Assembly (NCBI GenBank): GCA_020849665.1
Contig: JADLFX010000031.1
Location: 1 to 64,000, forward strand
Source: Planctomycetota bacterium
GTDB taxonomy: Bacteria; Planctomycetota; UBA1135; UBA2386
Reading direction: 5' to 3'
DNA length: 64,000 nucleotides
Both the position numbers and the translations under genes were made by a program. The notes under the pieces were generated by a model, which did no database searches, had not been told where the DNA came from, and saw nothing but the letters and a program-made list of their open reading frames with translations. Below, in pieces: positions 38,043-44,462 of this stretch. Within the stretch, counting starts at the first letter, position 1. The number at the start of each line of letters is the position of its first letter.

Positions 38043-40841
38043 ATGAGCCGGAAGCCCGGAGCCAGCGTCGCCGCCGTGCCGTGGAGCCAGCGTCTCTCGG
38101 AACGCGCCAAGGAGGCGCTCTCCCTGCTGCTGATCGCGTTCGCGCTCTTCTCCCTACTGTCGCTGGCGACCTTCCGCCTGCCGGACCCAGGGCTGCAGGC
38201 CATCCCGCGGGAGGCCTTCCAGAACCTCGGTGGCGCCGTGGGCTACCACATCGCCCACGGGATGACGTTCCTCTTCGGGCAGGCGGCGTACCTCGTGTTC
38301 GCCTTCCTCCTGGTGCACGCGGTGCTGCTCTTCCTGCGCCACGACGTGCCCAAGGTGGTGCACAAGGCCCTCGGCGTGCTGGTGTTCACGGTCGTGGCGG
38401 CCCTGCTCCTGGCCGGCCCGGACGGCCGGGCGGGGATCGGCGAGCCGACGCCGTACGGCGCCGGGGGACGCTTCGGCGCCAACCTCTCGCCGCGCCTCTA
38501 CGAGGCGTTCGGCGGCTCCGGGCGGATCCTGCTCCTGGTGTTCGGGGGGCTGGTGGCCTTCCTGATCGCCACCGACTTCCTCTTCCTGGCGCTGCTGCGC
38601 CAGGGCGCCGAGCGGCTGGGGCGAGCGGTGGACCGGATCCGGCCCGACCCCGCGGCGGCGGCCACCGCAGGCGGGTCTGCCGGCGCCGAGGTACTGGACG
38701 CCGGCGCCGCGGACCTGCTCGGCCCGCGTTCCACGCCCCGGCGGCGGCGCGCGAGCCGGGTCCCGGACCCGGCCGAGGAAGCGGAGCCAGGGGAACCGGA
38801 ACCGGAGGCTGCCTACGAGGACGCCCGCCCCGGCGGCGGCGAGGCGGACGTGGACGACCGGGCGGGCGCCGGGCTGGTGATCCATGACTCGCGCCCGCCG
38901 CAACCGGCACGTGCCGTGGGCCCGTCCCGACCGGAGCCCGAGCCTGGGTCCGGACCCGTCGCCGGGGCTGCGGCGGGGGCTGCGGAGCCGCCGGCAGCCG
39001 CCCCCGAGTCTCCGGCCGAGCCGGCCGAGCCTGCCGAGCCGGCCCCGGACCCGGACGCGGCCAAGGAGGCCGGCGCTGCCCCGGCCGAGGAGCGCCCGGC
39101 CGCGCGCAGGCCGCGCATCAAGGTGGAGCGGGCGCGCCGGGTGCGGCGCGGCCAGCAGAGTCTGCCGTTCCCGGCCGCCTATCCGTTCCCGCCCATCGAT
39201 CTCTTCCATCAGGCCGCGCACCAGCGCGACGAGGATCTGCGCACCGCGATCCAGGCCAATGCCGACGCGATCGAGCGCCGCCTTGGATCGTTCAAGATCG
39301 AGGCCAAGGTCGTGAGCGTGTCGCCAGGCCCGGCCGTGACCCAGTACGAGGTGCGGCTCGGCGAGGGCATCAAGGTGTCGCGCGTCGTGAGCTTCGAGGC
39401 CGACCTCGCCGCCGCGCTCAAGGCCACGTCGGTGCGCGTCGTGGCCCCGATCCCGGGCAAGGACACGGTGGGCGTGGAGGTGCCCAACCAGCGCCGCCAG
39501 ATGGTCGTGATGCGCGAGCTCCTGGAGCTCCACGGGCGCGCCGAGGACCTGGCCCTGCCGCTCTTCCTGGGGCGCGACGTCGCCGGCAAGCCGATCGTCG
39601 AAGACCTCACCAAGATGCCCCACATCCTGATCGCGGGCACGACCGGGTCGGGCAAGTCGGTGTGCATCAACACGATCCTGCTCTCGCTCCTGATGACCCG
39701 CACGCCGGAGCAGGTGCGGCTCATCCTGATCGACCCGAAGATGGTCGAGCTGCAGTCGTTCCGGGCCGTGCCGCACCTGGCCTGCGACGTGGTCACCAAC
39801 ATGAAGAAGGCGCCCACGGTCCTGCAGTGGGCGGTCGACGAGATGGAGCGGCGCTACGAGCTCTTCTCGCGTGTGGGGGTCAACCACATCACGCTCTTCA
39901 ACCGGCTCGGCCGCGGGGAGCTGGAGAAGCGCCTGCAGACGCCCGTGGACGAGGGCGCCGAACGGATCCCCTACATGGTCGTGGTGATCGACGAGCTGGC
40001 CGATCTGGTCGCGGTGGCGCAGAACGAGGTCGAGGAGTCCATCCAGCGCCTGGCGCAGAAATCGCGCGCGGTGGGCATCCACGTGATCCTCGCCACGCAG
40101 CGGCCGAGCACCGACGTGATCACCGGGGTGATCAAGGCCAACCTGCCCGCGCAGATCGCGTTCCGCGTGAGCCGCAAGATCGACTCGCGCGTGATCCTCG
40201 ACGCCAACGGCGCCGAGGTCCTGCTCGGCCACGGCGACATGCTCTACAACCAGCCGGGCGGCAAGGGCATCGTGCGCGCGCAGGGCACCTACGTGGCGGA
40301 GGACGAGATCGACGCCGTCGTGAAGTACCTGGAGATGAAGGGGCAGACCCCGAGCTTCATCCCCGAACTGGCCCGCCCCGAGAAATCGGTCGGCCGCCGG
40401 CCCCAGGAGAAGGACGACCTGTACGAGAAGGCGGTCGAGGTCGTGCTCGGGCAGCAGCGCGGCTCGGCCACGCTCCTGCAGCGGGCCCTGGCGATCGGCT
40501 ACACGCGGGCCACCAGGCTGCTGGAGCTCATGGAGGAGGACGGGCTGGTCGGTGGCTTCCAGGGTTCGAAGTCGCGCGAGGTCCTGATGACCCTGGAGGA
40601 CTGGCGGATCCGGGAGGAGTCGATCCGCGACGAGTTGGACCGCCTGGAGCAGGAGGGGGCGGAGGACGGTGCGGTCGAGGCTGAAGAGGACGCGGACGCG
40701 GACTTGGGCGGGGCCGCAGCCGGCGAGTCCGGGTCGTCCCAAGGCGCAGCCGGCGAGGACGCCGGATCGGCATCCGACCCAGGAGCCGTCAGGCCGTCCG
40801 ATCCCGAGGCGACGCAGGAGCACGAGGCTCAGGGTCCCTGA
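38043..40841 (+). CDS. ftsK: FtsK/SpoIIIE DNA translocase
   Basis: A 932-aa DNA translocase. The N-terminus has four membrane helices (about 20-195), the last containing LVAFLIATDFLFLALL. A Pro/Ala/Glu-rich linker follows to about 350. The alpha and RecA-like beta motor has Walker A GTTGSGKS at residues 532-539 and Walker B MVVVIDELADL near 645. A gamma winged-helix domain (about 795-865) with SATLLQRALAIGYTRATRLL reads KOPS polarity sites. It pumps chromosome termini through the division plane and activates XerCD. It is followed by a related gene without motor. Confidence 0.95.
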   Translation: MSRKPGASVAAVPWSQRLSERAKEALSLLLIAFALFSLLSLATFRLPDPGLQAIPREAFQNLGGAVGYHIAHGMTFLFGQAAYLVFAFLLVHAVLLFLRHDVPKVVHKALGVLVFTVVAALLLAGPDGRAGIGEPTPYGAGGRFGANLSPRLYEAFGGSGRILLLVFGGLVAFLIATDFLFLALLRQGAERLGRAVDRIRPDPAAAATAGGSAGAEVLDAGAADLLGPRSTPRRRRASRVPDPAEEAEPGEPEPEAAYEDARPGGGEADVDDRAGAGLVIHDSRPPQPARAVGPSRPEPEPGSGPVAGAAAGAAEPPAAAPESPAEPAEPAEPAPDPDAAKEAGAAPAEERPAARRPRIKVERARRVRRGQQSLPFPAAYPFPPIDLFHQAAHQRDEDLRTAIQANADAIERRLGSFKIEAKVVSVSPGPAVTQYEVRLGEGIKVSRVVSFEADLAAALKATSVRVVAPIPGKDTVGVEVPNQRRQMVVMRELLELHGRAEDLALPLFLGRDVAGKPIVEDLTKMPHILIAGTTGSGKSVCINTILLSLLMTRTPEQVRLILIDPKMVELQSFRAVPHLACDVVTNMKKAPTVLQWAVDEMERRYELFSRVGVNHITLFNRLGRGELEKRLQTPVDEGAERIPYMVVVIDELADLVAVAQNEVEESIQRLAQKSRAVGIHVILATQRPSTDVITGVIKANLPAQIAFRVSRKIDSRVILDANGAEVLLGHGDMLYNQPGGKGIVRAQGTYVAEDEIDAVVKYLEMKGQTPSFIPELARPEKSVGRRPQEKDDLYEKAVEVVLGQQRGSATLLQRALAIGYTRATRLLELMEEDGLVGGFQGSKSREVLMTLEDWRIREESIRDELDRLEQEGAEDGAVEAEEDADADLGGAAAGESGSSQGAAGEDAGSASDPGAVRPSDPEATQEHEAQGP

Positions 40842-40956: not shown

Positions 40957-42846
40957 ATGTCCGCAGCACCGCTTCCGGCACCTGGGCAGGGCGCCGGGCC
41001 ACGCACCGGGTGGGCGTACCCGGTCGCCTGTGGTTCCTTCGCCGTGTTCTCGCTCTCCGCGCTCACCTACCACCACTTCGTACGTGGTGGCGTGGGGGAT
41101 GGCAGCGGGCTCCTCCAGGGGATGGTGGTCGGGATCTACCAGGGCATCGGCTTCGTCTCGGCCACGATCACGTTCCTGCTCGTGTTGTCGTGGGCGACGA
41201 TCTGGTTCGTGCGCGGCGCGCTGGACCAGCCTCTCGCGCGCCTGGGACGCATCCTGCTCCTCACGCTCTCCCTCGCCGTGCTCACCAGCCTGAGCGGAGC
41301 CGGAGTGCCGCCGCCGGGCGGAACCCTCGGCGCGTGGCTCGCCAGCGGGCTCGCCGACCTGCTGGGGAACGTCTTCAGCCTGCTCCTGGTCACGGCGCTC
41401 ACCCTCACGGCCCTGCTCCTCGCCACGGACTTCTTCTTCTACGCCTACTTCCAGGCCGATGCGGTCGTTCCGCGTGCGGGTGCGGGCCGGCCCGAGTCCC
41501 GCGGCGCGGAGGCCCCCGCGCCGGCGCCGCTCGCGTCGGTTGCGTGGCAGGGCGAGCCTCAGGTCGAGGGCCGCGCGCTCCTGCACCTCGATCCGCCGGC
41601 CGACCCGCGCATCGTGGGGGTGAGCGGCGTGCTGGGGGCGGCCGGACCTTCCGCGCCCGTGGAGGACGGCGTCGCCGGAGCGCCCGGCAGCGAACTCGAG
41701 TTCGAGGATCGACAGCCGGAACCGGTCGCAGCGGAGGAGACCCAGCCCTCCGGCCCGGAGCAGGCCGACCGTCCCTGGCGCCGCACGCGCGTGCGGCTGC
41801 GCCTCGACGACGTGCCCGAGGACCTGCCTCCGCTGGAGGTGGCGGACGTGGCGGGACCCGCGACCTCCGAACGCGCGCCGGAACCGGGGTCCGCAGCGGA
41901 GCCGGAACCTGCCGTGCAGCCGCTCTCGGAGGCGGCCGGTTCCGCCGCCGCGTGGGCCGCGCCCTCCCCGGCGCCCGTTGCCGAGGAGCCGGCCTCGGCC
42001 GCGGCCGCTTCCGCGGCCGCTGAGGAGGGCGAACGCATGGTCGAAGCCCTCGACCGCAGCTCCCCCGACGAGGACGCGTCCGAAGAGGCGCACGAGCCGG
42101 GCGAGGAAGAGGATGCCCTGGAGGACGAGCCGGCCCGGGCCGCCGAGGCCGAACGCGACGAGGAGGAATGGGTGGCGCCGGCCCGCGTGTTCGCGCCCGT
42201 GGCGATCGTGGGGGTCGAGGAGCCCGCACCCGCGCCCCACGCGCAGCCGCCCGCCGAGCCCGCGCCGGAGTCCGGCGCAGGAGCCGCTCCCGGGGCAGGG
42301 TCCGAACCCGCAGCCGGAGTGGCGGCGCCGTCCGAGGCGCCGCAGGAGCCGGTCCAGGACGAGGCGTCCTACGCCGCGGCGGCGCACGAGGACCTCGAGC
42401 TGGAGGCCGCCACCGCCGCGGCCGAACTCTACGTCCGGGCGGAGTCCGGGACCGGCGAGCCCGACCCCCTGGAGGGTGGCGAGGAACCGGCGGCCGGCAG
42501 CGCGTCGCCGGCCCAGGCGGCGGACGAACCCGAGTTCGTCCTGCCCCGTCCCGATGCCCCGCCGGTCGCCGGCGACACCGTGAAGGTGCGCCAGGGCACG
42601 CTCTTCCCCGGGGCGAGCGAGGACCAGCGCCTGGTGGAGGAGGCGGCGCGCCTGGTGCGCGAGGCGCGTCGCGCCAACGTCTCCCTGCTGCAGCGGCGCC
42701 TGCGCGTGCGCTACGACGAGGCCGTCGAACTGCTGCACGCACTCGGCCGGCTGGGAGTCATCGAGCTCCTGCCCGGGGAGACCCAGGGTCGCGTGCGGGT
42801 CGGCTCCGACGAGAGCGAGGCGCAACCCGATGACGCGCATTCGTGA
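40957..42846 (+). CDS. FtsK-like membrane protein lacking the motor domain
   Basis: A 629-aa protein. Four N-terminal membrane segments (about 15-170) end in TALLLATDFFFYAYF, closely matching FtsK's last helix (LIATDFLFLALL). A very long Ala/Pro/Glu-rich, probably disordered linker spans about 180-545. The C-terminal about 70 residues (LVEEAARLVREARRANVSLL, then QRRLRVRYDEAVELLHALGR) align with the FtsK gamma winged helix of the upstream gene. No Walker A or other ATPase motif is present. It starts 116 bp after ftsK, same strand. It may join FtsK rings or bind the same DNA sites or XerD partner; this is inference. Confidence 0.8.
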   Translation: MSAAPLPAPGQGAGPRTGWAYPVACGSFAVFSLSALTYHHFVRGGVGDGSGLLQGMVVGIYQGIGFVSATITFLLVLSWATIWFVRGALDQPLARLGRILLLTLSLAVLTSLSGAGVPPPGGTLGAWLASGLADLLGNVFSLLLVTALTLTALLLATDFFFYAYFQADAVVPRAGAGRPESRGAEAPAPAPLASVAWQGEPQVEGRALLHLDPPADPRIVGVSGVLGAAGPSAPVEDGVAGAPGSELEFEDRQPEPVAAEETQPSGPEQADRPWRRTRVRLRLDDVPEDLPPLEVADVAGPATSERAPEPGSAAEPEPAVQPLSEAAGSAAAWAAPSPAPVAEEPASAAAASAAAEEGERMVEALDRSSPDEDASEEAHEPGEEEDALEDEPARAAEAERDEEEWVAPARVFAPVAIVGVEEPAPAPHAQPPAEPAPESGAGAAPGAGSEPAAGVAAPSEAPQEPVQDEASYAAAAHEDLELEAATAAAELYVRAESGTGEPDPLEGGEEPAAGSASPAQAADEPEFVLPRPDAPPVAGDTVKVRQGTLFPGASEDQRLVEEAARLVREARRANVSLLQRRLRVRYDEAVELLHALGRLGVIELLPGETQGRVRVGSDESEAQPDDAHS

Positions 42847-43112: not shown

Positions 43113-44462
43113 GTGGACACGCAACCGTCGATCGAAGAACGCGGCGTACCGCGCAATCTCGAGGCCGAACGCTCGGTGTTGGGCGCGTTGCTGCTCCATT
43201 GCGACGCGGTCAACGACGTCGTCCAGTTCCTGAAGCCGGAGGACTTCTACCTGCCGGCGCACCAGGTCATCTACCGGGCGATCCTCGACCGCCACGACCG
43301 CAAGACCCTCGCCGACGTCATCACGGTCGAGGAGGAGCTGGCCGGCAAGGGGCTGCTGGAGGAGGCCGGGGGACGGGACCGCCTCCTCGACCTGGCCGGA
43401 TCGGTGGTCTCGGCCGCGGCGGTGCAGCAGCACGCGGAGATCGTCCGCGAGAAGGCGATCCTGCGGCGCCTGCTCGAGACCTGCCTGGACCTGTCGCGGC
43501 TCGCCTACCAGGGTGGACAGGAGGCCCAGCCGCTGCTCGACGAGGCCGAGCAGCGCATCTTCGAGATCGCGCGCGTGGGCGTGCGCAGCGACGCCATGGA
43601 GATCTCGGCGATCCTGAACGAGACCTTCCAGCGGATCGAGATGATCCGCAGCCGCGAAGGCCGGCTCTCCGGCCTCGCCACGACGTACTACGACCTCGAC
43701 GACATGACCGCCGGCCTGCAGAAGGGCGAGCTGGTGATCCTCGCGGCGCGGCCGTCGATGGGGAAGACCTCGTTCGCCCTCAACATCTGCGAGCGCGTGG
43801 CCGGAGCCGGGAACGGCGTGCTCTTCTTCTCCCTGGAGATGTCCGCCCAGCAGGTCATCCAGAACATGCTCTGCTGCCGGGCGCAGATCGACAGCCAGAG
43901 CCTGCGCAAGGGCAAGATCACCGAGCAGCAGTATCGCCGCCTCCAGGAGGAAGCGGGGGTCCTCTACAACGCCCCGATCTTCGTCGACGACACCGCGGGC
44001 ATGACCGCGCAGATGATCCGGGCCAAGGCCAGACGCATCCTGCAGCGCCGCCCCCTCTCCCTGATCGTCATCGACTACCTGCAGCTGCTGAGCAGCGGCC
44101 GGCGCGAGGAGAGCCGCCAGCAGGAGATCGCCGGGATCAGCCGCGGCCTCAAGCAGCTGGCCCGCGAACTGTCCGTGCCGGTGGTGGCCCTGGCCCAGCT
44201 CAACCGCGAGGTGGAGGGCCGCGACGACCACCGCCCGCGCATGAGCGACCTGCGCGAGTCCGGCGCGATCGAGCAGGACGCCGACGTGATCATGCTCCTG
44301 CACCGGGAGGAGTACTACAAACGCACGGAGGAGAACGCCGGCCTGGCCCAGATCCTGATCGCCAAGCAGCGCAACGGCCCGACCGGCGACATCACCCTGC
44401 GCTTCTTCCGCGAATTCATGCGCTTCGAGAACTACCGGCGCGGCGCCGAGCCGATGACCTGA
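43113..44462 (+). CDS. dnaB: Replicative DNA helicase DnaB
   Basis: About 449 aa, the usual DnaB length. The N-terminal collar domain starts at RNLEAERSVLGALLLHCDA. The RecA-like C-terminal motor has Walker A RPSMGKTS near residue 215, Walker B LIVIDYLQLL, and the conserved NREVEGRDDHRPRMSDLRES and IEQDADVIMLLHR. There is no intein. The start is taken as GTG 43113 (or TTG 43110, one codon upstream), both a suitable distance from GGGAGG. It unwinds DNA at the replication fork. Its neighbours ftsK and bamA are unrelated housekeeping genes. Confidence 0.95.
   Translation: MDTQPSIEERGVPRNLEAERSVLGALLLHCDAVNDVVQFLKPEDFYLPAHQVIYRAILDRHDRKTLADVITVEEELAGKGLLEEAGGRDRLLDLAGSVVSAAAVQQHAEIVREKAILRRLLETCLDLSRLAYQGGQEAQPLLDEAEQRIFEIARVGVRSDAMEISAILNETFQRIEMIRSREGRLSGLATTYYDLDDMTAGLQKGELVILAARPSMGKTSFALNICERVAGAGNGVLFFSLEMSAQQVIQNMLCCRAQIDSQSLRKGKITEQQYRRLQEEAGVLYNAPIFVDDTAGMTAQMIRAKARRILQRRPLSLIVIDYLQLLSSGRREESRQQEIAGISRGLKQLARELSVPVVALAQLNREVEGRDDHRPRMSDLRESGAIEQDADVIMLLHREEYYKRTEENAGLAQILIAKQRNGPTGDITLRFFREFMRFENYRRGAEPMT

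Follow-up and report, generated by a model that had tools for sequence, protein, structure and literature searches.

The window analysed here is a stretch of 64,000 nucleotides from a Planctomycetota bacterium (contig JADLFX010000031.1, positions 1 to 64,000). It harbors a complete ftsK and, starting 115 bases downstream of it, a gene for a protein that resembles FtsK at both ends and lacks a motor, referred to below as the companion. The genes concerned and the parts of the companion are as follows.

38043..40841, + strand: ftsK, full DNA translocase of 932 aa (Pfam)
40957..42846, + strand: motor-less FtsK companion, 629 aa (open reading frame, Pfam, BLASTP, AlphaFold model)
41002..41457, + strand: FtsK-like four-helix membrane domain, residues 16-167 (FtsK_4TM, BLASTP, model)
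41458..42591, + strand: disordered linker, acidic and rich in Pro, Ala and Glu, residues 168-545 (pLDDT, composition)
42592..42606, + strand: QGTLF, residues 546-550 (RQGTLF with the preceding Arg), a motif of the beta-clamp-binding type (enrichment, identity with ImuB)
42619..42795, + strand: FtsK gamma winged-helix domain, residues 555-613 (FtsK_gamma over its cut-off, fold)
42709..42738, + strand: altered recognition helix, residues 585-594, RYDEAVELLH versus GYTRATRLLE in the neighbouring FtsK (alignment, E. coli numbering)
43113..44462, + strand: dnaB-like replicative helicase gene directly downstream of the companion (open reading frame, homologues beside the companion elsewhere in the family)

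The product of ftsK matches the Pfam families FtsK_4TM (77.8 bits), FtsK_alpha (108.8), FtsK_SpoIIIE (197.7) and FtsK_gamma (80.9). The companion frame begins with an ATG preceded by GGGAGG, which is similar to a ribosome-binding site. Residues 555-603 match FtsK_gamma with 34.3 bits, above the cut-off of 30.6, and residues 60-162 match FtsK_4TM with 21.9 bits, slightly below the cut-off of 23.1. The Pfam search of the companion revealed no FtsK_alpha, no FtsK_SpoIIIE and no other P-loop family, and a motor with Walker motifs is absent. The alpha and motor domains are likewise absent from the companion frames of other genomes, as judged by Pfam and by reading the loci. The N-terminus aligned by BLASTP with that of the neighbouring FtsK (27% identity over 179 aa, E=4e-9), including the helix with the ATDF motif. 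The first-pass annotation had described an FtsK membrane end and a gamma winged helix without an ATPase core; Pfam, BLASTP and the AlphaFold model agree on this architecture. Neither an unrelated N-terminus nor another winged-helix family at the C-terminus was seen in the comparison with the FtsK domain profiles.

In the AlphaFold model the membrane helices span residues 16-41, 52-86, 92-113 and 138-167, and the motif ATDFFF (residues 156-161) lies in the last of these. The linker (approximately residues 172-551, or ~380 aa) has a pLDDT below 50 almost throughout, with two weak helices, in agreement with the disorder originally proposed for it. The gamma domain is modelled with a pLDDT of 92-96. 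As anticipated, its nearest solved structures are FtsK gamma domains, including one bound to KOPS (Foldseek probability 1.00, target TM 0.74-0.84), and comparison with an FtsK gamma structure gave a VIA Z of 9.2 over 60 residues; the fold-search list was filled by such gamma matches and is uninformative on the membrane domain. The gamma domain starts at residue 555, as first annotated, but ends near residue 613 and not at 629; residues 614-629 form a short tail.

An FtsK_gamma search of 41 related genomes was combined with a survey of 195 genomes across the phylum. Most of the 41 genomes contain a second gamma match, usually about 2 kb from the first. Motor-less copies were found in 17 of 62 sampled Planctomycetota families (f1, f2, f3, f4, f6, f7, f8, f10, f13, f23, f27, f28, f32, f34, f44, f45 and f46), and the family of the window has the companion in 25 of 25 genomes. 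In G004 the single gamma match is the companion, ftsK being lost at a contig end. FtsK_gamma matches all 63 full-length companions and FtsK_4TM matches 18 of the 63 (E<=0.01, best 7.7e-13). Almost all full-length members have three or four hydrophobic segments, a linker and a gamma domain, and Gly65 and Gly122 are invariant across the 63. The linkers range from about 190 to 690 aa; most are acidic, with a high content of Pro, Ala and Glu. The repetition of this architecture in dozens of genomes indicates that it is neither chance nor a broken copy of ftsK. Two further stretches of the linker are conserved in the window's family, RRRSYFERR, of which the window's companion holds a mere remnant, and GVExAVTxHLRGLA, located behind the last membrane helix.

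The same gene order, first proposed as something to look for in Planctomycetota, recurs in the survey. Companions are encoded on the same strand as ftsK and nearly always directly 3' of it, with gaps mostly less than about 120 bases or with overlapping frames. The order in the window's family is a coaBC-like gene, ftsK, companion, dnaB and bamA. One exception is family f7, where ftsK and companion are separated by ~200 kb in G030 and lie on different contigs in G034. Inserts of 6.3 kb (L045 3303-9581) and 1.5 kb (L134 4302-5857) separate the two genes at two loci, and there the companion still adjoins dnaB. The FtsK_gamma search, which a strongly diverged gamma domain would escape, found no companion in f5, a family of the same order as the window, or in most genomes of, for example, f9, f20, f26 and f37. 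Matches of the window-family alignment in sequence collections came from metagenome bins, mostly labelled Planctomycetota and one of clade CL500-15. Companions in Hydrogenedentota or Sumerlaeia had been suggested by a scan of the collections; these loci hold ordinary, motor-bearing FtsK. Gamma domains also occur in other small genes. Family f17 encodes, after ftsK, two small soluble proteins of 80 and 140 aa (L082 3682-3924 and 4036-4458, + strand) with one and two gamma-like winged helices, respectively, and no membrane domain. In the complete planctomycete genome G198, a gene distant from ftsK (L116 2344-2550, + strand) encodes 68 aa that consist of gamma alone. Its KOPS residues are near-canonical, and it resembles the gamma-only genes reported in phages (PMC8190038).

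The companion had first been taken for a duplicate of ftsK that lost its motor. The FtsK-like ancestor and the loss of the motor stand, but the duplication is not local. In a tree of membrane and gamma domains (73 rows), one branch with support of 100/99 parts 36 companions from 37 FtsKs, and it is present in 100% of the bootstrap trees examined; the tree is unrooted and has several long branches. All sampled companions thus look like descendants of one ancient split, which extends across at least 17 families. Since companions do not group beside their own FtsK, repeated lineage-specific duplications are disfavoured, and a recent local duplication is ruled out by the single separating branch. 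A pseudogene, frameshift or split ftsK is also ruled out, given the full ftsK upstream and the intact companion across families. In the simplest history, ftsK would have been duplicated once early in the phylum, the copy losing its motor, and later descent would have been mainly vertical, with losses.

The gamma domain has retained its fold and lost most of the residues that read KOPS. Reading in E. coli uses N1296, R1300 and E1303 (PMC2533119, PMC2680272), and the window's companion has Asp587, Glu591 and His594 at these positions. Gly1294 is present in 67 of 67 FtsKs versus 16 of 74 motor-less gamma copies, Arg1297 in 66 of 67 versus 17 of 74, and Arg1300 in 66 of 67 versus 18 of 74. Core positions such as Leu1287, Ala1298 and Gly1309 are retained in the motor-less copies. 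The net charge of the recognition helix falls on average from -0.48 to -1.42 in companions, and position 1300 is neither Arg nor Lys in any of 24 window-family members. Families f46 and f28 retain most KOPS-reading residues. The window's companion is therefore likely KOPS-blind, as far as its residues tell. Binding of KOPS by the companion on its own, raised in the first-pass annotation, is not supported, because the reading residues are gone in its family. The companion might still serve as a membrane anchor for KOPS-bearing DNA that binds without a motor. The retained fold and the residues kept in f46 and f28 speak for such an anchor, but their loss in the window's family and most others, together with the fall in charge, renders it highly improbable.

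Directly before the gamma domain, the companions of the window's family carry RQxxLF. The bacterial clamp-binding consensus is QL(S/D)LF (review, PMC9690074), and QGTLF is a motif of this type inside the predicted disordered linker; the preferred Leu at position 2 is missing in most members. Of 68 companion linkers, 39 contain QxxLF, compared to a mean of 0.60 and a maximum of 4 over 300 composition-preserving shuffles; relatedness inflates this count, as the 39 linkers are not 39 independent events. The motif occurs in one of 58 FtsK linkers, and among control proteins in 0 of 45 DnaB, 2 of 38 BamA and 0 of 57 CoaBC. The variants ExxLF, RxxLF, NxxLF, AxxLF, PxxLF and DxxLF are not enriched in companions above the shuffle range. 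The motif is limited to 5 of the 17 companion families (f1, 21/24; f3, 1/1; f6, 4/4; f8, 9/13; f13, 4/4; others 0). Its distance to gamma varies in f8, it is doubled in three f13 members, and the linkers otherwise change fast. The genome of the window has comparable motifs in clamp clients, RQQSLF in DinB, RQGTLF in ImuB and QKLLF in DnaE (~residue 921 of the frame), and the ImuB motif is identical to that of the companion. The genome has one DnaN match, the end of which reads YVLMPISGS and resembles the VVMPMRL pocket segment of the E. coli clamp. Based on these motifs, we infer sliding-clamp binding for the companion of the window and for the majority of its close relatives. The restriction of QxxLF to five families indicates that clamp binding is not the general function of companions. 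A basic residue at 1300 is found in 5 of 46 members of families with QxxLF versus 13 of 22 in families without it. The difference suggests a loss of DNA reading by gamma in families that carry the clamp motif, a lead only, given the few families involved.

A related motif is found in FtsK. QxxLPF stands directly before the motor/alpha domain in 12 of 16 FtsK linkers of the window's family, compared to 0.33 expected over all 58 FtsK linkers, and the FtsK of the window (38043-40841) has GQQSLPF. The clamp motif of E. coli Hda is QLSLPL. By this likeness, FtsK itself may touch the clamp.

Taken together, the companion can be viewed as an ancient motor-less FtsK paralogue that serves as a membrane-anchored partner and holds the sliding clamp at FtsK or the division membrane. 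We favour this interpretation, and put its chance slightly short of even. Homology and gene order suggest that the four-helix domain would place the companion in the membrane together with FtsK, from where the long acidic linker would allow the C-terminal part to reach the nucleoid. QxxLF, just before gamma, would capture the sliding clamp of DNA polymerase III (DnaN), and the KOPS-blind gamma fold would act as a protein contact or a non-specific DNA contact. New DNA marked by the clamp, or the replisome, would then be held near FtsK and the division membrane, such that FtsZ-less cells could export DNA and close once replication has ended. In its full form, a membrane receptor for the clamp, derived from FtsK by motor loss, that couples the end of replication to FtsK-driven export and closure in FtsZ-less Planctomycetota, the proposal is tentative, with perhaps one chance in three. 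A clamp tether does not explain why gamma is retained in all 63 full-length companions, nor why f46 and f28 retain the KOPS residues.

The companion could instead be a structural partner or brake that forms hetero-assemblies with FtsK through the membrane domain and limits or places active hexamers, with clamp binding absent or a local addition. The common 4TM domain, the constant gene pairing, the long joint history and the many companion families without QxxLF are all consistent with such a role, which nevertheless leaves the enrichment of QxxLF and the strict retention of the gamma fold unexplained; we consider it unlikely. The first-pass idea that the companion might cap, recruit or tune FtsK may also hold. 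A decaying, functionless duplicate would account for the fast-changing linker and for the families of the same order, such as f5, where no companion was found, but is scarcely credible given its presence in every genome of the family, its phylum-deep retention and the conserved residues in both domains.

A further possibility is that the companion activates Xer recombination without a motor, its gamma domain being held at the membrane and contacting XerD while no DNA is translocated. E. coli gamma contacts XerD through Gln1288 and Arg1289, and a 9-residue gamma peptide activates XerD (PMC5052618). The E. coli mutants R1300A and E1303A are defective in KOPS recognition and still support recombination (PMC2680272). 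Gln1288 is kept in 55 of 68 companions and Arg1289, as Arg or Lys, in 63 of 68; in the window's family 24 of 24 members have Arg1289 and Arg1292, and Asn1296 is lost. All gamma residues in contact with XerD also belong to the larger set touching KOPS DNA (PMC5052618), so their retention is ambiguous. The assembly has 12 matches to tyrosine recombinases that exceed the Pfam cut-off, XerC- and XerD-like proteins included, and its XerD (L072 1459-2481, - strand) has Pro/Ala/Ala at the positions of the E. coli contact residues Glu183/Glu184/Tyr187, which prevents a salt bridge to Arg1289 of the E. coli kind. Binding to XerD, as first proposed, therefore retains the gamma side of the contact but not the XerD side. 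Activation argued from Gln1288 and Arg1289 is weakened on both counts; from the sequences it is doubtful, and we regard a motor-free Xer activator as improbable. Control of Xer by FtsK may differ in the window's lineage, where XerD is without the E. coli gamma-contact residues.

The companion shares with the FtsK/SpoIIIE translocases, encoded by the neighbouring gene, a four-helix membrane domain, a long linker and a C-terminal gamma domain, and differs from them by the absence of alpha and the ATPase motor, the loss of most KOPS residues and its own side of the tree. SftA of Bacillus is another system for comparison, and it retains the motor. Like the companion it is a second FtsK-family protein with a gamma domain, but it appears to be without a membrane domain (PMC4744071), the opposite pattern to that of the companion. 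Phages encode stand-alone FtsK_gamma proteins, and a Samaravirus small terminase is fused to FtsK_gamma (PMC8190038). These also place gamma outside a translocase; unlike the companion, the fused protein retains the DNA-binding residues, and no FtsK membrane domain has been reported in the phage proteins. The clamp clients DinB, ImuB and DnaE have QxxLF as the companion does, but are polymerases or polymerase-like, and the companion differs by its membrane domain. In line with the initial impression of a novel architecture, no description of a motor-less FtsK protein with membrane and gamma domains was found in the open-access literature searched, nor was an FtsK paper among the ten best of 38 matches there for FtsK and the sliding clamp. 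The FtsK membrane domain, the gamma fold and the clamp motif are known parts; no account was found of their combination or of how widely it is paired with ftsK.

The mode by which planctomycetes divide without FtsZ is the wider question behind the companion. A Pfam search of the whole assembly of the window revealed no match to the tubulin/FtsZ family, in keeping with FtsZ-less planctomycete division. Planctopirus limnophila requires ftsK but not the other division genes tested, and is reported to have a single FtsK homologue (PMC6952346, PMC10632474, PMC12283558). Elsewhere in the phylum, a dedicated and ancient FtsK partner is encoded beside ftsK. If the companion does bind the clamp, replication and the division membrane would be joined by a concrete link that can be tested quickly, and the companion would also offer a natural gamma domain that kept its fold after the DNA-reading residues went.
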